This document shows, in pieces, positions 10,789-49,978 of a stretch of 64,000 nt of DNA. How positions within the stretch are numbered: the first letter of the stretch is position 1; each line of letters begins with the position of its first letter. This DNA is from Hyalangium gracile (GTDB lineage: Bacteria; Myxococcota; Myxococcia; Myxococcales; Myxococcaceae): assembly GCF_020103725.1 (NCBI RefSeq), contig NZ_JAHXBG010000038.1:1-64000 (forward strand), in the 5' to 3' direction. The notes under the pieces were generated by a model that worked only from the letters and a program-made list of their open reading frames with translations, ran no database searches and had not been told where the DNA came from. The position numbers and the translations under genes were made by a program.

Positions 10789-12260
10789 CGCGAGGTGGAG
10801 CGGGTGCGGACCCAGAGGACGTACTGGCCCTCCCGGGCCTCCTCGCGCCAGCCGCCGGCCTTCCGGAGCTGATCGAGGAGGATGTTGCCCGGATTCTCCT
10901 CATCCCACAGGAGGTAGTCCGGATCGTAGCGGGCGAGCGACTCCTCCCAGCCGGGCTCCGACCAGAGGATCCGCATGTAGTCGTCGTGGATGGGCTGGGG
11001 GAAGGGATCGTTCCGGCTGTCGATGAACACCTTGTAGTCCGGGCCCGCGAAGTACGAGACGGCACCTCCGATGGTGAAGCGGTTGAGCACCTTGCCCGGA
11101 GGCAGGTTGCGCAGCGCCTCGAAGCAGGTGAGCGGAAAGCGCGAGCGCAGCACACCCTGCTCCACGGGCACGGGGTTCTGCCAGCTCACCCCCGCCAGCA
11201 GGACGAGCGCCAGCGCCGGCCAGAGGCCACCACCGGCTCCGGCGCTCCAGCGCGCGAAGAGCGCATCCAGCGCCTGGGCGGGACGGCGGAGGAGCTCCGG
11301 CCACACGAGCCCGCGCACCGGCGCCGCGTGCTCCAAGAACGCCAGCGCCACGAGCACCGCCGCGAAGGGTGCATGGCGCTGCACCTTCAGCGCCGCGAGC
11401 CCCAGGCCCAGGGTGGGCAGGAGGATGGCGATGCGCCGCACCGGGGCCTGCCCCACGACGAAGAGCGCCATGCCGACCAGCGCCAGGTACGCCCAGCTCC
11501 AGCCCACCGCGAGATCGAGCGGCACCCACTCGTTGATGTTCTGCGTGGACTTCAGCAGCGAGTGGTGGAGTGGGTAGAGCCAGATGCTCGGGCCGCTGGG
11601 CGACAGCGCCGACACGAGGAACATGGCCACGCCGGCGACGACCGCGCGCACGGCCCGCGGGCGCTGCTCGGGAGTGTCCAGCGCCTGGCCCACCGCCGTG
11701 GCTCCGAGCAGGGCCGGGCCCAGCAGCCAGCTGCCGTGCAGGTTGGCCCAGGCCACGCCCAGCAGGGGCGCGAACCACAGCACCCGATCATTCCCCGCTC
11801 GCCAGGCCTGGACGCCGAGCACCGCGAGGGCGAACAGCAGGTGTCCCACGTGGAAGGGGCGCTCCTGGCTCCAGGTGGGGGACTGGACGATGAGGACCAG
11901 GGCGAGCACCCCGAGCGTCACCAGCCCCCGGCGAGGCGCCGCGCGGCCGAACGCCGCCCAGAGCAGCAGCACGTTGGAGGCGACGAGCGCTCCGGTGAGC
12001 AGCGCCGGGCCCGCCGCGCCCAGCAGCTTCACCAGCAGCACGGAGAGCACGCCGAAGCCCCACTCGTGGGGCACCCAGCCCGCGGTGCCCGTCACGCTGA
12101 AGGGGTCCACGCGGTTGAAGCCATGCTCCAGCACGTAGCGCCCACCCGCGAGGTGGAAGAAGAGATCGTAGTGCTTGAGCGGCGACAGCCCCAGCTTCAC
12201 CCCGAAGTAGAGGGCGAGCAGCGCGGCCGGTCCAGGGAGCAGCAGGGCCCGACGGCTCAC
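10785..12260 (-). CDS. Polytopic membrane protein, GT-C-like
   Basis: A 491-residue protein with about 10 hydrophobic helices and a soluble C-terminal region (about 375-491). The first loop carries HYDLFFHLAGGRYVLEHG and a conserved-looking VPHEWGF; WANLHGSW lies in mid-protein. This layout, with a short acidic or polar first periplasmic loop, many helices and a C-terminal periplasmic domain, is that of GT-C lipid-linked-sugar transferases and of myxobacterial proteins paired with YfhO. The stop overlaps the yfhO start, and the gap to the upstream gene (ends at 12267) is 6 bases, so it sits within the operon. No catalytic residues can be named. Confidence 0.75.
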   Translation of the reverse strand: MSRRALLLPGPAALLALYFGVKLGLSPLKHYDLFFHLAGGRYVLEHGFNRVDPFSVTGTAGWVPHEWGFGVLSVLLVKLLGAAGPALLTGALVASNVLLLWAAFGRAAPRRGLVTLGVLALVLIVQSPTWSQERPFHVGHLLFALAVLGVQAWRAGNDRVLWFAPLLGVAWANLHGSWLLGPALLGATAVGQALDTPEQRPRAVRAVVAGVAMFLVSALSPSGPSIWLYPLHHSLLKSTQNINEWVPLDLAVGWSWAYLALVGMALFVVGQAPVRRIAILLPTLGLGLAALKVQRHAPFAAVLVALAFLEHAAPVRGLVWPELLRRPAQALDALFARWSAGAGGGLWPALALVLLAGVSWQNPVPVEQGVLRSRFPLTCFEALRNLPPGKVLNRFTIGGAVSYFAGPDYKVFIDSRNDPFPQPIHDDYMRILWSEPGWEESLARYDPDYLLWDEENPGNILLDQLRKAGGWREEAREGQYVLWVRTRSTSR

Positions 12261-41608: not shown

Positions 41609-42679
41609 TCAGCAGGGGAAGCAGGCAGCCTGACGCAGCGCCGTGTCCTCGGGGAGGCCGAGCGCCACGTTGAGGTTCTGCACCGCCTGGCCGGCCATGC
41701 CCTTGACCAGGTTGTCCAGCGCCACCATGACGGCCACCGTGCGGCCGCGCGTGGCGACGGAGATGTCGCAGAAGTTGCTGCCCACCACCGAGGCCAGCCG
41801 AGGCGTGCCCTCCACCACGCGCACCATGGGAGAGGTGGCGTAGTAGCGGCGGTAGAGCTCGGTGAGGGAGGCGGTGCTCACGCCGCCCGCGTTCTCCGGC
41901 CACTCGAACTGCACGGTGGCGAAGATGCCGCGCACCAGGGGCGCCGAGTGGGGGATGAACGTCAGCCGGTGGCGCGAGGCCTTGTGCGCCACGAGCATCA
42001 CGTCCATCTCCGCCTCCTGCGGGTGCTCCAGGGGCTTGTAGACGCGGAAGTCATGCGCGCGGGTGGGGTGGTGGGTGCCCTCGCCCGGCAGCACGCCCGA
42101 GCCGGACGAGCCCGTCACCGCCGTGGCCGCGATCAGCCCCAGCCCCGGGGTGGACGCCACCGGCAGCAGCGCGAGCTGCACCGCGGTGGCGAAGCAGCCT
42201 GGGTTCGCGATGCGCTTCGCGCCCTTGAGCTTGTCCCGGCGCCACTCGGGCAGTCCGTACACGAAGCGCTCGAGCAGGTCGGGCGCCAGGTGGGGACGGC
42301 CATGCGTGGCGGCGTAGCGGCCCGGGTGGTCCAGCCGGAAGTCCGAGGACAGGTCCATCAGCACCAGCCGCTCGGACAGCCCCAGCTCGGCCCACTTCTT
42401 CTCCAGCGCGGGGAGCTGCTTCGCCAGCTCCTCGTCATCCATCACGGAGAAGACCACCGGCTGCGGCGAGTCCGTGAGCCAGCGCCAGTCCGGCTCCGAG
42501 TCGAACTTGCCCTCCACCAGCCCGCGCAGGTGCGGATGCAGCGCGTGGAAGGGCATGTCCGCGTGCGGCTTGGACACCGCGCGCACCGCGGCCACCGCCG
42601 GGTGACCGGACAGCAGCCGCAGCAGCTCTCCACCACCGAAGCCCGAGGCTCCCAGGATGTAGGCGTGAACCCGTGTCAT
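41609..42679 (-). CDS. argC: N-acyl-gamma-glutamyl-phosphate reductase
   Basis: A 356-residue NADPH-dependent reductase of the arginine pathway that turns acylglutamyl phosphate into the semialdehyde. Motifs are ILGASGFGGGELLRLL (nucleotide binding), the catalytic Cys162 in ANPGCFATAVQL, and a His-containing TFIPHSAPLVRGI. It is the last gene of the seven-gene minus-strand arginine operon and its ATG overlaps the stop of the P-loop gene by four bases. Given the succinyl-type transcarbamylase in the same operon, it may work on the N-succinyl intermediate. Confidence 0.95.
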   Translation of the reverse strand: MTRVHAYILGASGFGGGELLRLLSGHPAVAAVRAVSKPHADMPFHALHPHLRGLVEGKFDSEPDWRWLTDSPQPVVFSVMDDEELAKQLPALEKKWAELGLSERLVLMDLSSDFRLDHPGRYAATHGRPHLAPDLLERFVYGLPEWRRDKLKGAKRIANPGCFATAVQLALLPVASTPGLGLIAATAVTGSSGSGVLPGEGTHHPTRAHDFRVYKPLEHPQEAEMDVMLVAHKASRHRLTFIPHSAPLVRGIFATVQFEWPENAGGVSTASLTELYRRYYATSPMVRVVEGTPRLASVVGSNFCDISVATRGRTVAVMVALDNLVKGMAGQAVQNLNVALGLPEDTALRQAACFPC

Positions 42680-43737
42680 GCGCTCTTCCTCCCCGCGATA
42701 CGCGGCGCGACCTTCTCCAGGATGAGACCGCCCAGGCCGGCGGCGTCGGCTCGGGCGTTGTGCGCGGGCAGCCCCACCTCGCGCTCCACGAAGCGGATGC
42801 CCACGCGGTTGTCCGTGGCGGGCCCGGCCACCACGTCCACCTGGATGCCGTACGTCTCCTTCAGGTGGCGCACGCCGCCCGAGGCGCCCACGGGATCATT
42901 GGCGCACAGCACCCACGCGCCGCCCATCCCGCGCAGCTCCGGATCCTCGAGGATGGACTGCACGCCGTACTCGCCCATGATGCCGTCACCCGTCTCGGCG
43001 ACGATGACGTCCACCTCGGCGGCGGCCAGCTCGGAGAGGATGATGCGGGACACCTGGGCGGCCGTCTTCGGGCTGGTGCACACGGTGCCCGCGTCGGTGA
43101 AGTCCATCACCACCTCCGCGCCCGAGTCCCTCATGCTCAGCGTGTCGCGCATCAGCGACACGCCGGTGAGCTTGGCGCCGCCCACGCGGAAGCCGGCCTG
43201 GGCCAGCCGGCGCACCATGGCGCAGGCCGCGTAGGTCTTCCCCGCGTTCATGCAGGTGCCCACCACGTACACCACCGGCACGGACACCGGCTGCTGCGAG
43301 CCCTTGAGCGCTCCGGCGCGGACGTGGGCCGGCTGACCGGCGCGCGACTGGAACTCGGGGAACATCAGCACCTGCCCGAGCACCTCCGCCTCGAAGGGAG
43401 TGCCTACGCCCGGGTTGTGCGAGGTGCACTGGCCGATCACCCCGCCCATGTTGAGCATGTGCAGCCGCTGGCCGGGGGCCACCTTGTCTGGCACCACGCC
43501 CTCGTACCCGTGCAGGGCGTTGCGGTGGCCGAGCGCCCCCACGACGATGTCTCCGCCGTGCAGCGTCACCAGCCGGCCGTGCACGTCCTCGAGCTGGTTG
43601 TAGACGGACTTCTCCCCGTGGATGCGGGCGGCGATCACCGCGCCCTCCACCGCCTGGATCTCCTCGGTGAGGTGCACGGTGCGGCCGAGCCGCAGGTTGC
43701 GGGTGACACTGCCTACCTTGTCGACGTGGACCTTCAT
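42676..43737 (-). CDS. P-loop NTPase in the arginine operon, DUF1611/BioD-like
   Basis: A 353-residue protein. A beta-rich N-terminal domain (about 1-145, with GDIVVGALGHRNALHGYEG) precedes a P-loop NTPase domain (about 155-350) with Walker A VGTCMNAGKTYAACAM and a Walker B-like VDVIVAETGDGIMGEYG. The fold resembles dethiobiotin-synthetase/MinD-type enzymes and the DUF1611 family; the reaction is unknown. It overlaps argG upstream and argC downstream by four bases each, so it is made stoichiometrically with arginine enzymes. An ATP-dependent ligase or regulator of this pathway is possible. Not a known step of the classical route. Confidence 0.75.
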   Translation of the reverse strand: MKVHVDKVGSVTRNLRLGRTVHLTEEIQAVEGAVIAARIHGEKSVYNQLEDVHGRLVTLHGGDIVVGALGHRNALHGYEGVVPDKVAPGQRLHMLNMGGVIGQCTSHNPGVGTPFEAEVLGQVLMFPEFQSRAGQPAHVRAGALKGSQQPVSVPVVYVVGTCMNAGKTYAACAMVRRLAQAGFRVGGAKLTGVSLMRDTLSMRDSGAEVVMDFTDAGTVCTSPKTAAQVSRIILSELAAAEVDVIVAETGDGIMGEYGVQSILEDPELRGMGGAWVLCANDPVGASGGVRHLKETYGIQVDVVAGPATDNRVGIRFVEREVGLPAHNARADAAGLGGLILEKVAPRIAGRKSA

Positions 43738-44924
43738 GGCTTCACCTTGAGGGCCAGGGTCTGGGCCACGCCGTACACCTTGGCGAAGCCGGCGGCCTCG
43801 GCACCCGTCCAGAGATGGTTGGCCTCGCCGTAGCTCGCCACCTTGGCGTCCATCAGCGAGTGCGGGGAGCGCACGCCCTCGACAATCATGGCGCGCGGCT
43901 GCAGCGTCACGCGCACCTCGCCCGTCACGCGGGCCTGCGAGGACTGCAGGTACGCCTCGACGTCCCGGGCCAGCGGATCGAAGAAGTGCCCCTCGTGGAG
44001 CAGCGTGCCGTAGAGGTTGCCCAGCGTCTCCTTCCAGAAGAGCTGCTTGCCGGAGAGCACCAGCTTCTCCAGCTCGCGGTGCGCGGTGATGAGCATCACC
44101 GCCGCCGGGGCGTCGAAGCCCACGCGGCCCTTGATGCCCAGGATGGTGTCACCCAGGTGCACGCCGCGCCCCACGCCGTAGGGCTGGCCCAGCGTGTTGA
44201 GCTGGGCGATCAGCTCCACGGGCGCCATCGCCTGGCCGTCAATCGCCACCGGGCGGCCCTTCTCGAAGCTCAGCACCAGCGTGCGCGGCTTGAGGTCCGA
44301 GGGGATGACGCCGGCCGGGTAGGCGGCCTCCGGCAGGTTGCTCCACGAGTCGTGCGTCTCCTTGCCGCCGACGGAGGTGCCCCACATGCCCTCGTTGATG
44401 GAGTAGGCGCCCGTCTTCGCGGGGAGGTGGATGCCGCGCTCGGCCAGGAAGGACATCTCCTGGGCGCGGCTGAGGCTCAGCTCGCGGATGGGGGTGATGA
44501 GGTCCATGTCCGGCGCCAGCGCGCGGAAGGCCACGTCGAAGCGGACCTGATCGTTGCCCGCGCCGGTGGAGCCGTGGGCCAGGGCCTTGGCGCCCACCTC
44601 GCGGGCCATGCGCACCACCTCGGTGGCCTGGCAGACGCGCTCGGCGGAGACACTCAGCGGGTAGGCCTGGCCGCGCAGCACGTTGCCGGCGAGCAGGTGG
44701 CGCAGGTAGTCCTCGAAGAGCAGCGCGCGAGCGTCCACCGTGTGGTGGGCCACCGCGCCCAGGCGAGCCGCGTGCTCCGGCATCTTCGCCAGCGCCTCGG
44801 CGGTGAAGCCGCCGGTGTCCACGGTGACGGTGGTGACAGCGTGCCCCTGCTCGCGCAGATAGACCACGCAGAAAGAGGTGTCCAAGCCGCCGGAGAAGGC
44901 CAGCACCACGGGTTTCTTGCTCAT
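43734..44924 (-). CDS. argG: Argininosuccinate synthase
   Basis: A 396-residue ATP-dependent ligase joining citrulline and aspartate. The PP-loop SGGLDTS lies at the N-terminus (AFSGGLDTSFCVVYL); other family segments are AHGSTGAGNDQVRFD, SINEGMWGTSVGG, and VGRGVHLGDTILGIKGR. Length is normal. It sits between argH (after a 15-bp repeat region) and the P-loop gene, overlapping the latter by four bases. Confidence 0.96.
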   Translation of the reverse strand: MSKKPVVLAFSGGLDTSFCVVYLREQGHAVTTVTVDTGGFTAEALAKMPEHAARLGAVAHHTVDARALLFEDYLRHLLAGNVLRGQAYPLSVSAERVCQATEVVRMAREVGAKALAHGSTGAGNDQVRFDVAFRALAPDMDLITPIRELSLSRAQEMSFLAERGIHLPAKTGAYSINEGMWGTSVGGKETHDSWSNLPEAAYPAGVIPSDLKPRTLVLSFEKGRPVAIDGQAMAPVELIAQLNTLGQPYGVGRGVHLGDTILGIKGRVGFDAPAAVMLITAHRELEKLVLSGKQLFWKETLGNLYGTLLHEGHFFDPLARDVEAYLQSSQARVTGEVRVTLQPRAMIVEGVRSPHSLMDAKVASYGEANHLWTGAEAAGFAKVYGVAQTLALKVKP

Positions 44925-44949: not shown

Positions 44950-45009
44950 CTGCTGCGTCCACTACAACTGCATTCACGGCTGCTGCATTCACGGCGACTG
45001 CGTCTACGG
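44950..45009. repeat. Four 15-bp tandem repeats between argH and argG
   Basis: Four imperfect 15-bp units occupy 44950-44964, 44965-44979, 44980-44994 and 44995-45009; the consensus on the + strand is about CTGCTGCATTCACGG. Units two and three differ at two positions. The array starts within the argH stop region and fills the only sizeable gap in the operon. As read on the minus strand it resembles a short in-frame coding repeat, but it follows the argH stop. It may be an expanded linker or mRNA-processing or spacing element. Confidence 0.8.
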
Positions 45010-46353
45010 CTGCCAGACGCGCTCGGCGCAGGTGGCCAGGGCGCGGTGGGTCTCGGTGAGCCAGGCTCGGACGCTGCCCAGCTCGGCGCGGAGCTGCTCC
45101 AGCGCGAGGTTGCCGGCGCCGCCCAGGTGGGTGGCCGTCAGCGCGGCCCGGTCCGGACGGAAGGTGCCGTCGGAGAGCTCGCGCGCCACCTCGCGGTAGG
45201 CGTCGCGGAAGGGCAGGCCGCGCCCGACGAGCACGTAGGCGTGGTGGGCGGCGTACAGCGTGTCGTCGCAGGCCCGGGCGGCGGCCTCGGCGCGGATCTG
45301 GATCACGGGGACCAGCCGCGTGAGCACGTCCAGCAGCTCCCGCAGCGAGCCCAGCCCGGAGAGGGTGGGGCGCTTGAGGAGCTGGAAGTCCCGGTGGTAG
45401 CTGGAGGGCAGGCCCCCGGCCACCTCCTCCACCTGTCGCGCAATCCCGCGCAGCTCGCGGCAGCGGGCACGCGCCAGCTCCACCACGTCCGGGTTCTTCT
45501 TCTGCGGCATGATGGACGAGCCGGTGGTGAACGCGTCCGGCAGCGAGAGGAAGCCGAACTCCTCGGTGCTGAAGAGGGACACGTCCCACAGCCACTTCTC
45601 CAGGCCACCCGCCACCGAGCACGCCCACGAGAGCGCCGCCATCTCGTGCCGGCCGCGGCTGTTCTGCACGTCGATGGGGCTGCGCTGCACGCGCGAGAAG
45701 CCGAGCAGGCTTGCCACGTACTCGCGATCGATGGGCAGCGGCACGCCGAAGCCCGCCGCCGCTCCCAGGGGGCTTCGGTCCAGCCGGGCCCACAGGCCGC
45801 GCAGCGCCTCCAGCTCCTCCAGCAGGCCCTCGGCGAAGGCGGCGCCCCACATGCCGAAGGTGCTCGGCATGGCCCGACGCATGTGGGTGTAGCCGGGCAT
45901 CGGCACGCTGGCGTGCGCCTGGGCGAAGTCCAGGAAGGCCCCGGCCAGCTCCGCCGCGTGGGCGCCGAGCACCAGCACCTGCTCGCGCAGCATGAGCCGC
46001 AGGGCCAGCTGCACCTGGTCGTTGCGGGAGCGGCCCAGGTGGATGCGGCGGCCGGCCTCGCCCACCCGCTCCACGAGCGCCGCCTCCAGCGCGGTGTGCC
46101 CGTCCTCCTGCTCCGGACGGATGGTGAACGCGCCCGCCCGCGCCTCGTCATGGAGCGCGCGCAGGGCGGGCACCAGCGCCCGCATATCCTTCTCGGGCAG
46201 CAGCCCCACGCGCGCCAGCATCCGCGCATGGGCCGCGCTGCCGAGCGCGTCGTGCGGCGCCAGCGCCAGGTCCACCTGGGGATCATCCCCGACGGTGAAG
46301 CGGTGGATGGCCGCGTCCAGCGGAAGGCCCTTCGACCAGAGGGTGTCAGCCAC
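45004..46353 (-). CDS. argH: Argininosuccinate lyase
   Basis: A 449-residue enzyme cleaving argininosuccinate to arginine and fumarate. The superfamily signature GSSIMPQKKNPDV is present, as are HLGRSRNDQVQLAL, PGYTHMRRAMPSTFG, and DVQNSRGRHEMAAL (a variable region). The start is GTG at 46353, overlapping the argE stop by eight bases. The sequence between the signature motifs fits the family, slightly shorter than the E. coli enzyme. Confidence 0.95.
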   Translation of the reverse strand: MADTLWSKGLPLDAAIHRFTVGDDPQVDLALAPHDALGSAAHARMLARVGLLPEKDMRALVPALRALHDEARAGAFTIRPEQEDGHTALEAALVERVGEAGRRIHLGRSRNDQVQLALRLMLREQVLVLGAHAAELAGAFLDFAQAHASVPMPGYTHMRRAMPSTFGMWGAAFAEGLLEELEALRGLWARLDRSPLGAAAGFGVPLPIDREYVASLLGFSRVQRSPIDVQNSRGRHEMAALSWACSVAGGLEKWLWDVSLFSTEEFGFLSLPDAFTTGSSIMPQKKNPDVVELARARCRELRGIARQVEEVAGGLPSSYHRDFQLLKRPTLSGLGSLRELLDVLTRLVPVIQIRAEAAARACDDTLYAAHHAYVLVGRGLPFRDAYREVARELSDGTFRPDRAALTATHLGGAGNLALEQLRAELGSVRAWLTETHRALATCAERVWQP

Positions 46354-47416
46354 GGGCCACCTCCTCGAAGTAGCCGCGGATGAGCCGCTGGTAGAAGGCC
46401 ACGCCCGCCTCCAGCTCCACGAGGGCCAGGTACTCGTCCGGCTTGTGCGAGCGCAGCGTGTCGCCGGGGCCCACCTTCACCGCGGGCACCTGCCCCAGGA
46501 AGGCCCAGTCGGACGCCGTGCTCGAGCCCACCGGCCCCACGCCCCCACCGGCCGCCACCGCCGCCCGGACGATGGGCTCGCCCGGAGCCGTGGACTTCGG
46601 CAGGTAGCGCGCGGAGTGGACGATCACCTCGCTGCGCAGCACGCCGGCCAGGTGGGTGGCCACCGCCGCGTGCTCCATGCCCGGCGTGGTGCGGATGTCC
46701 ACGAAGAACTCGCAGCGGTCCGGCACCTGGTTACGGGCCAGGCCGCCCTGGATCTGCGTCACCTGGGCGCGTGCCTCGCCCAGCAGCGGGTGCGCGGGGA
46801 AGCGCAGCTCGGCCAGGGTGGAGATGTCCTGGGCCGCCAGGTGGATGGCGTTCTGCGCCTCGGCTGCCTGCGCGTGCGCCACGTGCGCGGAGCGGCCATG
46901 CGCCACGCAGCGCAGCAGGAGCATCCCGCGCTGGGCGGTGCAGGGCTTCAGCCCGGTGGGCTCACCCACCACGGCCGCGTCCAGCGGCCCGAGCGCCGGC
47001 AACACCGTGCCCAGCCCCGCGCCGCCCGTCTCCTCCTCGGCGGTGAAGGCGAAGACGACCTCACCCCGGCCCTCCAGGGCCTGGGGGTTCTGCAGCAGCT
47101 CGCGGGCCGCCAGCAGCATGGACGCCACGCAGCCCTTGGCGTCATTGCTGCCCAGCCCGTACAGCCGGCCCTCGCGCCACACCGGCACCTGGGGCTCCAG
47201 CGTCCACCCGGCGCACGGGGGCACCGTGTCCAGGTGCGAGTTGACGAGCAGCCGCCGGGGGCCGCTGCCCACGGTGAACCACAGGTTGTGGCCCTGGCGC
47301 TGGACGCGCCCGCCCCAGCCCTCGACCCAGGAAGCCACCTGATCGGCGATGCGTCCCTCCTGTCCGGAGACGCTCGGGGTGGCCACCAGGGCCTCGAGCA
47401 GGGCGGCCGGCGTCAC
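46346..47416 (-). CDS. argE: M20-family N-acyl-citrulline/ornithine deacylase
   Basis: A 356-residue M20 metallopeptidase of the ArgE/DapE family. The dinuclear zinc site is visible: NSHLDTVP, GSNDAKGC, FAFTAEEETGG (general base and ligand Glu), VGEPTG, and the final His in SHKPDEYLAL; the dimerisation domain starts at GMLLLRCVAHGRSAHVAH. In pathways using an acylornithine transcarbamylase, this enzyme removes the acyl group from N-acylcitrulline. It starts with GTG overlapping the argB stop. Whether it prefers succinyl or acetyl substrates cannot be read from sequence. Confidence 0.9.
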   Translation of the reverse strand: MTPAALLEALVATPSVSGQEGRIADQVASWVEGWGGRVQRQGHNLWFTVGSGPRRLLVNSHLDTVPPCAGWTLEPQVPVWREGRLYGLGSNDAKGCVASMLLAARELLQNPQALEGRGEVVFAFTAEEETGGAGLGTVLPALGPLDAAVVGEPTGLKPCTAQRGMLLLRCVAHGRSAHVAHAQAAEAQNAIHLAAQDISTLAELRFPAHPLLGEARAQVTQIQGGLARNQVPDRCEFFVDIRTTPGMEHAAVATHLAGVLRSEVIVHSARYLPKSTAPGEPIVRAAVAAGGGVGPVGSSTASDWAFLGQVPAVKVGPGDTLRSHKPDEYLALVELEAGVAFYQRLIRGYFEEVARG

Positions 47417-48261
47417 GTCCGGGCCCCGGGATTGCGCGCGGCTTCTCGCACTACCATCGTGCCGCTGCCCTCGTTGGTGAAGACCTCCTCCAACAGCGCG
47501 TTCGGCAGCACGCCGCTCACCAGGTGCACGCTGGCCACGCCGCCCACCAGGGCGGAGCGGATGGCGTGGACCTTGGACAGCAGCGCCGCGGACATCTGGC
47601 CCTCCTGCTCCAGCGCCGCCAGGTCCGTGAGCGTGGCCTGGGGAATGAGCGAGGTAGGCTCGTCCGGGCGCCGCAGCAGGCCTGGCGTCGGCAGCAGGAA
47701 GAAGAGCTTCTCGGCGCCCAGCGCCACGGCGACCGACGCGGCCACCGTGTCCGCGCTGGCGCTGTAGACGCCGCCCGACGGATCACCCGCCAGCGGCGCC
47801 ACCACGGGCACGTAGTCCCCGGTGCGCAGGTGCTGGAGCAGGCGCGTGTCCACCGACTCGATGTCGCCCACGGGGCCGTAGTTCCCCGGCCGGTTCCCAT
47901 CCCAGGCGCTCTCCACCATGCCCTCGCCGGGGCGCCGCCGGGCGCGCAGCAGGCCCGCGTCCACGCCGCTCAGGCCCACGCAAGGCACTCCCGCCGCCTG
48001 CAGGTCGGCCAGCAGGTCCATGCGGACCTTGGCGGACATGGCGTCGAAGGGCGTGTCCAGCTCCGGGCCGGCGCCGTGCACCACCACGGGCTGGATGGAG
48101 AAGGTCCACAGCAGGGCGATCTGCTCGCAGGCGGCGCGGCGCAGCCGGGGATCCCCCAGCACCGGGCCATCCACCAGCAGGACGAAGGTCTTCCGGCGGA
48201 ACTGCCGGACGTAGCGCGCGGCGGAGCGGAGCGCGGCGTAGGGATCGGGAGAGAAGGGCAA
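47413..48261 (-). CDS. argB: N-acylglutamate kinase (ArgB-like amino-acid kinase)
   Basis: A 282-residue amino-acid-kinase-family protein. It has the glycine-rich VVVHGAGPELDTPF, in place of VHGGGP, with GLSGVDAGLLRARR, a central variable region, VYSASADTVAASVAVALGAEKLFFLLPTPGLL, and a C-terminal SAALLSKVHAIRSALVGGVASVHLV. It phosphorylates N-acylglutamate, the second committed step. The sequence is divergent from standard acetylglutamate kinases, in keeping with an altered acyl group. It starts 18 bases after the argF' stop and overlaps argE. Confidence 0.88.
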   Translation of the reverse strand: MPFSPDPYAALRSAARYVRQFRRKTFVLLVDGPVLGDPRLRRAACEQIALLWTFSIQPVVVHGAGPELDTPFDAMSAKVRMDLLADLQAAGVPCVGLSGVDAGLLRARRRPGEGMVESAWDGNRPGNYGPVGDIESVDTRLLQHLRTGDYVPVVAPLAGDPSGGVYSASADTVAASVAVALGAEKLFFLLPTPGLLRRPDEPTSLIPQATLTDLAALEQEGQMSAALLSKVHAIRSALVGGVASVHLVSGVLPNALLEEVFTNEGSGTMVVREAARNPGART

Positions 48262-48279: not shown

Positions 48280-49284
48280 TCAGGTGGCCAGGAGCCAGTG
48301 GAGGATGGAGCGCTGGACGTGGAACCGGTTCTCAGCCGTATCGATGACACGACTGGAGGCGTGATCCAACACGTCGTCAGCCACCTCGACGTTGCGGCGC
48401 ACCGGCAGGCAGTGCAGGAAGATGGAGTCCTTGGCGGCCCGCGCCATGGCGCTCCGAGTGGGCATCCACCCCGAGTACGAGGCCAGCAGCGCGGCCACAT
48501 CCCCCGGCGCATGCCCGGCGCGGGTCGCGGGCCCCCACGCCTTGGCGTAGACGGCGCGGCTGCCCTTGAGCGCCTCGGCCTGATCGTGGGTGTAGGTGAC
48601 GCTGCCGCCGGTGGCCTTCGCGTACGCCTCGGCCTCGGCGCGCACCTGCGGGTGCAGCTCGAACCCCGGCGGGTGGGCCACCCGCACCTCGCAGCCCGCG
48701 GCCGCGGCGCTGAGCAGGAACGAGTTGGGCACCGCCTTGGGCAGCGGCTTGATGTGGGGCGCCCACGTGAGCGTCACCGGCACCTTCTTCGTCGAGCCGA
48801 AGTTCTCCCGCAGCGTGAGCATGTCCGCCAGGCCCTGGCAGGGGTGCTCGCGCGCGGACTCCATGCTCACCAGCGGGACGGTGGCGTGCTTGCGGAAGGC
48901 GTTGATGACCGAGTCGAGCTCATCCTCCTCGTCCCCGCCGCCGCCCGAGAAGGCGCGCACCCCGAGCATGTCCACGAAGCGCGACAGCACCGGCGCCGCT
49001 TCCTTGATGTGCTCGGCCCGGTCCCCGTTCATCACCGCCCCGATGCGGTCCTCGAGCTTCCACACGCCGTTGCCCACGTCCAGCACGATGGCGTGCCCGC
49101 CCGAGCGCAGCATCACCGCCTCGAACGAGGTGCGCGTGCGCAGCGACGGGTTGAAGAAGACCATGCCGAGCAGCCGGTTCTGGAAGACGGGGCCGGGGGA
49201 CTGACGCTTCCAGGCGGCCGCCTGCGCGAGGATCGTCTCCACGCCTCCGGGGCCAAGGTCCTGAATGCGGGTGAAGTGCCTCAT
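48280..49284 (-). CDS. N-succinylornithine-type transcarbamylase (ArgF')
   Basis: A 334-residue acylornithine transcarbamylase. The carbamoyl-phosphate site is FFNPSLRTRTSFE, not the STRTR of ordinary ornithine transcarbamylase; the inter-subunit loop GNGVWKLE has Trp75 and the C-terminal motif is HCLPVRRN. The residue that sets acyl specificity (Glu92 in Xanthomonas acetyl-ornithine enzyme, Pro90 in the Bacteroides fragilis succinyl enzyme) is Ala90 here, in NGDRAEHI, and Trp75 aligns without gaps. Mutating that Glu to Ala gave succinyl specificity in the published work I recall. TWAPHIKPLPKAVPNSF and other segments also track the succinyl enzyme. First gene of the operon; GAGGAA lies before the ATG. 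Confidence 0.88.
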   Translation of the reverse strand: MRHFTRIQDLGPGGVETILAQAAAWKRQSPGPVFQNRLLGMVFFNPSLRTRTSFEAVMLRSGGHAIVLDVGNGVWKLEDRIGAVMNGDRAEHIKEAAPVLSRFVDMLGVRAFSGGGGDEEDELDSVINAFRKHATVPLVSMESAREHPCQGLADMLTLRENFGSTKKVPVTLTWAPHIKPLPKAVPNSFLLSAAAAGCEVRVAHPPGFELHPQVRAEAEAYAKATGGSVTYTHDQAEALKGSRAVYAKAWGPATRAGHAPGDVAALLASYSGWMPTRSAMARAAKDSIFLHCLPVRRNVEVADDVLDHASSRVIDTAENRFHVQRSILHWLLAT

Positions 49285-49329: not shown

Positions 49330-49351
49330 GCATATTCATGCATAAATATGC
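49330..49351. promoter_or_regulatory. Likely ArgR operator 1
   Basis: A 22-bp near-perfect palindrome reading GCATATTCATG then CATAAATATGC, two mismatched pairs, 46 bases upstream of the argF' start. It is AT-rich in very GC-rich surroundings. It resembles the TGCAT..ATGCA half-site arrangement of ARG boxes, and lies in the argF'-argR divergent region with the two other sites. Confidence 0.6.
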
Positions 49352-49381: not shown

Positions 49382-49454
49382 AGAACGACGCGCAGCGCAA
49401 TCCTTAAATTTCTTGCGGTTTTTTGGCGGCTTTGTTCGATGCCCTAAACGGTTC

Positions 49455-49474
49455 TTGCATGCATATGCATGCAA
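49455..49474. promoter_or_regulatory. Perfect 20-bp palindrome, likely ArgR operator 2
   Basis: TTGCATGCATATGCATGCAA is its own reverse complement over all 20 bases and lies 16 bases upstream of the argR start codon. This position fits autoregulation of argR. With the operator near the argF' start, ArgR could loop or bind both to repress the divergent operon when arginine is plentiful. Confidence 0.6.
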
Positions 49475-49490
49475 AGTGCATCGTGCCGGG

Positions 49491-49919
49491 ATGGGCGCGG
49501 ATCAGGCGTTGGACGAGGCCATCCTCCGGCTGCTGGAGGCGAACGAGATCACCGATCAGGCGGTGCTGCAGCGGCTGCTGACCGCCGAGGGCTTCGCTCC
49601 GAGCCAGTCGACGCTCTCCCGACACCTCAAGCGGCTGTCGATCCAGAAGGTGAGCGGGCGCTACCAGCGCGTGGAGCCGGGGGCGGCGGAGCCCTCGCAG
49701 GCGGTGACGGTGCTCGAGGCGCCTCCCAACATGCTGGTGCTGAAGACGGCGCCGGGCTACGCGCAGGTGGTGGCGGTGATGATCGATCGAGCGCCGGACA
49801 TCCCGGGCCTGGCGGGCACCGTGGCCGGAGACGACACCATCTTCATCGCGGTGCAGGACCCGTCGCTGCTGGCCGACGTGCGCCTCCAGGTGGAGCGGCT
49901 GCTGCGGCTGGTGCCCTGA
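49491..49919 (+). CDS. argR: Arginine repressor
   Basis: A 142-residue ArgR family regulator. An N-terminal winged helix (ALDEAILRLLEANEITDQAV, the SQSTLSRHLKRLSIQKV recognition region) is followed by the C-terminal arginine-binding/oligomerisation domain with LVLKTAPGYAQVVAVMID, PGLAGTVAGDDTIFIAVQD. I use ATG at 49491; the open frame extends 78 bases upstream but those bases contain the palindromic operator. It is divergent from the arginine operon and ends just before a bidirectional terminator. It should repress the operon and itself with arginine bound. Confidence 0.95.
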   Translation: MGADQALDEAILRLLEANEITDQAVLQRLLTAEGFAPSQSTLSRHLKRLSIQKVSGRYQRVEPGAAEPSQAVTVLEAPPNMLVLKTAPGYAQVVAVMIDRAPDIPGLAGTVAGDDTIFIAVQDPSLLADVRLQVERLLRLVP

Positions 49920-49926
49920 AAAGGAA

Positions 49927-49958
49927 GAGGGCCGCGGAGCGCGAGGCTCGCGGCCCTC
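49927..49958. terminator. Bidirectional terminator between argR and clpB
   Basis: A perfect 10-bp GC-rich stem, GAGGGCCGCG / CGCGGCCCTC with a 12-base loop, begins seven bases after the argR stop, followed by a short T-containing tail on the + strand. It sits between the convergent argR and clpB genes and could terminate both. Confidence 0.75.
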
Positions 49959-49978
49959 TCGTTCCATATAAGGAGGGG

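Follow-up and report, generated by a model that had tools for sequence, protein, structure and literature searches.

A P-loop protein as candidate N-succinylglutamate synthase in a predicted succinyl-type arginine operon of a myxobacterium

In the arginine operon of Xanthomonas, a knotted transcarbamylase stands in place of ornithine transcarbamylase and the acyl group is removed after carbamoylation; in the succinyl pathway of Bacteroides, a knotted transcarbamylase of the succinyl type (SOTCase) is combined with ArgB-, ArgC-, ArgG- and ArgH-type steps and a desuccinylase, and the proposed N-succinylglutamate synthase of Bacteroidetes is a GNAT protein, ArgA2 (BT3761) (PMC9026213). Three positions separate the two kinds of transcarbamylase: Glu92, Asn185 and Lys302 are the acetyl discriminators, and the succinyl enzyme carries Ala/Ser/Pro/Val/Gln, Pro and Val/Ile/Glu, respectively (review by Shi et al., PMC4581275); Ser, Pro, Ala or Val at the Glu92 position is reported to cause a preference for the succinyl substrate (GapMind paper, PMC7311316). 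The enzymes described for the preceding N-acylglutamate step are GNAT proteins (ArgA, ArgA2), ArgJ, a NAT-kinase fusion, and the deacetylase-like ArgA3 (PMC9026213; PMC1865377).

Genome-based predictions of the amino-acid requirements of bacteria repeatedly come up short at the first step of arginine synthesis. Here we describe an operon in the window (the whole 64,000-nucleotide stretch of Hyalangium gracile DNA that was analysed) that shares the knotted transcarbamylase, a predicted late deacylation and the ArgB-, ArgC-, ArgG- and ArgH-type genes with these systems, but that differs from Xanthomonas in having Ala/Pro/Glu at the discriminating positions and a stand-alone kinase instead of Glu92/Asn185/Lys302 and a NAT-kinase fusion, and from both in carrying a gene, here called P3, whose product has another fold than the GNAT protein ArgA2. 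P3, argR and the loss of catalytic residues by the operon kinase were all absent from the earlier note on this DNA, which dealt with the transcarbamylase and its kinase neighbour.

Operon layout and transcarbamylase

The operon runs on the minus strand in the order transcarbamylase, ArgB-like kinase, M20 deacylase, argH, argG, P3, argC (Table 1), with overlaps of 4–8 bases at four of six junctions, among them those of P3 with argG and with argC (4 bases each). The region between argR and the transcarbamylase contains palindromes rich in TGCAT/ATGCA, and related genera carry the same words ahead of their transcarbamylase gene; because argR is divergent and these palindromes carry recurring words, this is very likely an arginine operon regulated by arginine. 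A minus-strand open frame upstream of the transcarbamylase (49404-49967), first taken for a gene, was rejected because it matches no family and lies antisense to argR. An ArgD-type aminotransferase over cut-off is encoded in the window genome, unlinked to the operon; no ArgJ was found in that genome, and no GNAT gene of the kind expected from Bacteroides ArgA2 was found in the operon, where P3 is present instead.

Table 1. Features of the operon and of the region upstream of it (window coordinates)
Feature	Position	Strand	Remarks
Transcarbamylase, N-succinyl-L-ornithine-type (knotted)	48280..49284	-	W75, A90, P at Asn185 position, E at Lys302 position; acyl preference predicted
ArgB-like amino-acid kinase, probable pseudokinase	47413..48261	-	TTG start; Lys8, Gly10, Gly44, Asn158, Asn160 replaced, Arg66 loop deleted; Asp162, Lys217 kept
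M20 deacylase (ArgE/DapE class), predicted N-succinylcitrulline desuccinylase	46346..47416	-	role predicted from position
argH, argininosuccinate lyase	45004..46353	-	TIGR00838 over cut-off
argG, argininosuccinate synthase	43734..44924	-	TIGR00032 over cut-off
P3, unnamed P-loop protein, candidate N-succinylglutamate synthase	42676..43737	-	all-beta N-domain and BioD/CTP-synthetase/DUF1611-like P-loop domain
argC, N-acyl-gamma-glutamyl-phosphate reductase	41609..42679	-	TIGR01850 over cut-off
argR, arginine repressor, divergent from operon	49491..49919	+	PF01316, PF02863
Inverted repeat, operator-like	49330..49351	.	GCATATTCATG/CATAAATATGC
Perfect palindrome, 20-bp, operator-like	49455..49474	.	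TTGCATGCATATGCATGCAA

The transcarbamylase frame is intact (334 aa; Pfam domains OTCace_N and OTCace) and is the sole ornithine-type transcarbamylase found in the window genome. It had been proposed that its Trp75 and Ala90 match Trp75 and Pro90 of the B. fragilis enzyme, where the Xanthomonas enzyme has Glu92. The proposal holds: Trp75 aligns in register with the substrate tryptophan, Trp75, of the B. fragilis reference, the sequence of which was verified against PDB 1js1, and Ala, not Glu, falls at the position of X. campestris Glu92 in the alignment to PDB chains and in MAFFT alignments. The top PDB match, 3l02, also has Ala there. At the three published discriminators the window enzyme reads Ala, Pro and Glu, succinyl-type at 3/3, and the same trio occurs in 14 other core-family genomes, so that it is fixed in the 15 of 15 read. 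Acyl specificity is what we infer from residues, and a succinyl specificity is well supported by these three positions together with their fixation. The published rule admits Ala at 92 together with Glu at 302, and a succinyl-type transcarbamylase in a myxobacterium may therefore be no novelty in itself.

The further claim of a likeness to the succinyl enzyme in overall motifs is borne out locally (WKLE; WAPH..PLP..VPN, with PLPKAVPN as the loop) but not over the whole length: identity is nearly equal to the acetyl (40.2%) and succinyl (39.8%) references, phmmer gives ~238 bits to acetyl enzymes vs ~209 to succinyl ones, and the NCBIfam acetyl model scores over its cut-off (436 vs 288 bits). 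Automatic annotation would therefore name the enzyme acetyl, and so would misread transcarbamylases of this type as acetyl-specific. Among the three succinyl-anchoring residues, the histidine and Arg278 are kept, and B. fragilis Arg178 is replaced by Lys, the same residue as in the acetyl enzyme.

Predicted pathway and the operon kinase

Of the N-succinyl arginine route proposed in the earlier note, the transcarbamylase specificity is now supported at three published positions, and the whole-pathway reading is probable: judged from sequence, we somewhat favour an ArgR-linked arginine operon that works on N-succinyl intermediates. Counting for it are the three succinyl-type positions, the presence of deacylase, argH, argG and argC in the operon, and the conservation of P3 with succinyl-type transcarbamylases; counting against it are the Arg178-to-Lys replacement, the partial agreement with the three-residue rule in some P3 lineages, and the lack of a P3 relative of known activity at sequence level, as well as the Myxococcus xanthus deacetylase assignment and the GNAT gene discussed below. 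In the proposed pathway, P3 would succinylate L-glutamate at its alpha-amino group, with succinyl-CoA or succinate plus ATP as the source (its sequence may be compatible with either, and the ATP-using option is raised because every member has an intact P-loop); N-succinylglutamate would be phosphorylated by an ArgB, in the window genus probably the one encoded intact on a different contig, since the operon copy lacks the catalytic lysine; ArgC would reduce the phosphorylated intermediate; the unlinked ArgD-type enzyme would carry out transamination; the transcarbamylase would produce N-succinylcitrulline; the M20 enzyme would remove succinate from it; and ArgG and ArgH would catalyse the final steps to arginine.

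The operon kinase had been called divergent, and its divergence is stronger than claimed. Residue numbers follow the E. coli ArgB sequence, in which Lys8, Arg66, Asn158, Asp162 and Lys217 are among the site residues. The kinase is like ArgB (N-acetylglutamate kinase) in fold family and in Asp162 and Lys217, but, unlike ArgB, the copies of the window clade have lost much of the site: in seven genomes (the window genus and one sister genus) Lys8, Gly10, Gly44, the Arg66 loop and Asn160 are gone, with Asp162 and Lys217 kept, and compared with the site set of active kinases the window copy lacks Lys8, Arg66 and Asn158 and retains Asp162 and Lys217. All other P3-operon kinases that were aligned keep every site residue. 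The degenerate kinases are full open frames with a median dN/dS of 0.35 (0.10 for the two closest copies), and are therefore under purifying selection. The window copy is a probable pseudokinase, and its retention is a second oddity of the operon besides P3.

The window genome and its clade have an intact argB beside a second argC on another contig, and genome G028 has an intact operon kinase and no second full argB. We suggest that the unlinked ArgB would do the kinase chemistry and that the operon copy may now be a partner or sensor. The second argC-argB pair lies at L130 9083-10992 (G000:C9 ~89.1-91.0 kb), with a divergent GNAT gene at 11206-11712 of the same locus, and such a pair occurs in ArgJ-type relatives too. 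In genome G022, the second ArgB-like gene belongs to a LysX/LysY/LysZ/LysK-like cluster of the amino-group-carrier type (L132 6044-11584).

The GNAT gene bears on the alternative that survives best, in our view an unlikely one: an acetyl-based pathway, in which the transcarbamylase would use N-acetylornithine despite Ala90 and a GNAT protein encoded elsewhere would make N-acetylglutamate. The over-cut-off NCBIfam acetyl model and the equal overall identity to both references agree with it, as do the GNAT gene adjoining the intact second argC-argB pair and two papers that, following older literature, credit Myxococcus xanthus with an acetylornithine deacetylase; this assignment could be explained by a deacylase of broad specificity or by a genuine acetyl route. 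Against it, every core-family genome read has the succinyl-type residue at each of the three discriminating positions, and the GNAT is present in ArgJ-type genomes too and has no close match in the operon-bearing G022, G188, G192 and G193. The GNAT could be an N-acetylglutamate synthase in the window genome; as the first enzyme of the succinyl pathway it was rejected, being unlinked to the succinyl operon across genomes.

P3 as a candidate N-succinylglutamate synthase

P3 (353 aa) belongs to no named family; the 51 members examined give only matches below threshold, to the DUF1611 and MobB P-loop models. For Pfam PF07755 (DUF1611) the window protein reaches 21.7 bits against a gathering cut-off of 25, and the best E-value among the 51 members is 1.5e-4. 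A profile of these members searched against PDB sequences returned only BioD (E 1.4), so that no sequence-level relative of known activity was found there. The motifs GxxMxxGKT (P-loop) and ExGDG are kept in 51/51 members. The predicted model (mean pLDDT 91.8) has two domains, the N-terminal one all-beta and the other of the P-loop kind. The latter aligns with the DUF1611 proteins 2g0t (TM0796; Z 17.2) and 2obn (Z 15.8) and with 7xrj (DgcN; Z 15.1), as expected of the same fold, though not clearly above CTP synthetases (~16) and dethiobiotin synthetases (~15). PDB 7xrj is titled as the N-acetyltransferase DgcN, which reportedly acylates the amino group of D-glutamate. P3 is thus like the DUF1611 proteins in its predicted P-loop domain (Z 15-17), but unlike them in falling below the Pfam cut-off and in its all-beta N-domain, which by itself gave no clear structural match, though it may have a known fold. 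We rejected membership of DUF1611/DgcN: the PF07755 cut-off is missed and other P-loop families are just as close. Identity with ArgA2 or ArgA3 was likewise rejected, these being a GNAT and a deacetylase-like protein, respectively (PMC9026213); P3 is none of ArgA, ArgA2, ArgJ, the NAT-kinase fusion or ArgA3. In the literature on DUF1611, N-succinylglutamate and myxobacterial arginine synthesis, no description of P3 was found.

A scan with the P3 alignment, one genome per species, gave at least 512 confirmed relatives, and 80 loci were kept; by record titles, and mostly from metagenome-assembled genomes, these belong to Myxococcota, Planctomycetota, Acidobacteriota, Armatimonadota and Gammaproteobacteria. 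argC directly follows P3 in 80/80, and argG (76/80), the transcarbamylase (70/80), the kinase (68/80) and argH (64/80) are usually present, the absences falling mostly at contig ends; in most loci examined, a class III aminotransferase (ArgD type) occupies the interval from argC to the transcarbamylase. At the Glu92 position of the P3-linked transcarbamylases, Glu occurs in 0/67, with 62 Ala, 3 Val and 2 Gln; in some P3 lineages Lys remains at 302 or position 185 is Ala/Thr, so that only part of the set follows the three-residue rule in full. In the tree, the P3-linked transcarbamylases fall into two distinct clusters (with some doubt about where the long B. fragilis branch belongs), and the link to P3 is therefore present in two lineages. 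Two ~30%-identical relatives on Rhodobacterales plasmids (L230 5965-7062; L231 5887-6939), annotated DUF1611, lie outside arginine operons, and in both cases the next gene is one for an ABC transporter.

Within Myxococcota, P3 and the knotted transcarbamylase coincide in 10/10 genomes vs 0/49 others among 59 relatives, and in a sample of 195 Myxococcota genomes the knotted transcarbamylase is present in every one of the 53 core-family genomes that carry P3. In the deeper lineages G188, G189, G192 and G193, P3 stands beside argC, the kinase and the transcarbamylase in varying gene orders; in G189 (L072 7960-11941) the order is transcarbamylase-kinase-P3-argC, and the transcarbamylase has Thr at the Glu92 position. 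ArgJ occurs in 0/59 genomes with a bona fide P3 vs 90/136 others of the 195 (Fisher p ~5e-21, a statistic that ignores shared ancestry); G074, with a single 32%-identical P3 match, was placed among the 136. Five Glu92 transcarbamylases read in Myxococcota (L084, L085, L086, L088, L090) have no P3 nearby and none in their genomes. In two Glu92 operons that were read, the kinase carries the NAT domain of N-acetylglutamate synthase as a fusion, a domain found in four Glu92 genomes vs 0/11 P3 genomes, and no ArgA over cut-off was found in the 10 P3 genomes searched.

Because the fuller operons hold every arginine step except N-acylglutamate synthesis, and P3 is the only gene there without a role, we propose P3 as a candidate new N-succinylglutamate synthase, a chemistry that is suggested by elimination and gene linkage. 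With moderate confidence we extend this proposal to a new class of N-acylglutamate synthase, neither GNAT nor ArgJ, built on a P-loop and possibly ATP-dependent, that would open a succinyl arginine route in at least five phyla, with the operon kinase of the window genus as a retained pseudokinase that perhaps regulates, as its partner, the ArgB made from the other locus. P3 is in this way a concrete candidate for the first-step gap in hundreds of genomes, and the predicted succinyl route would reach well beyond Bacteroidetes.

Two other roles for P3 were weighed. It might be a regulator or an assembly NTPase of the operon and not a pathway enzyme, which we regard as improbable: the P-loop domain is equally like BioD, CTP synthetase, MobB and SRP GTPases, and the plasmid relatives adjoin ABC transporter genes and not arginine genes, but the 82 invariant columns spread over both domains, a dN/dS of P3 similar to that of the catalytic genes, and the mutual exclusion of P3 and other synthases fit a needed enzyme better. 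Least probable of all is a transacylase that, like ArgJ in the acetyl cycle, returns the acyl group from N-acylcitrulline to glutamate, since, although P3 and ArgJ exclude each other and in most gammaproteobacterial P3 operons no M20 deacylase is visible from the kinase to argH, the window operon and 16/80 kept loci have such a deacylase together with P3, and a pure transacylase needs a priming synthase, none of which was found in the deep lineages by ArgA and NAT-domain searches.

In another Myxococcota family, f11, two transcarbamylases (L087 9720-10721; L089 3453-4454) have lost three residues of the AOTCase/SOTCase site: the substrate Trp, His180 and Arg298. In two relatives (L134 10236-12323; L143 9845-11920), ArgJ is fused to an ArgB-like kinase in a protein of ~690 aa, and site residues are also gone from the kinase half of these fusions (GGG to GES, Asn158, Asn160 and the Arg66 loop).
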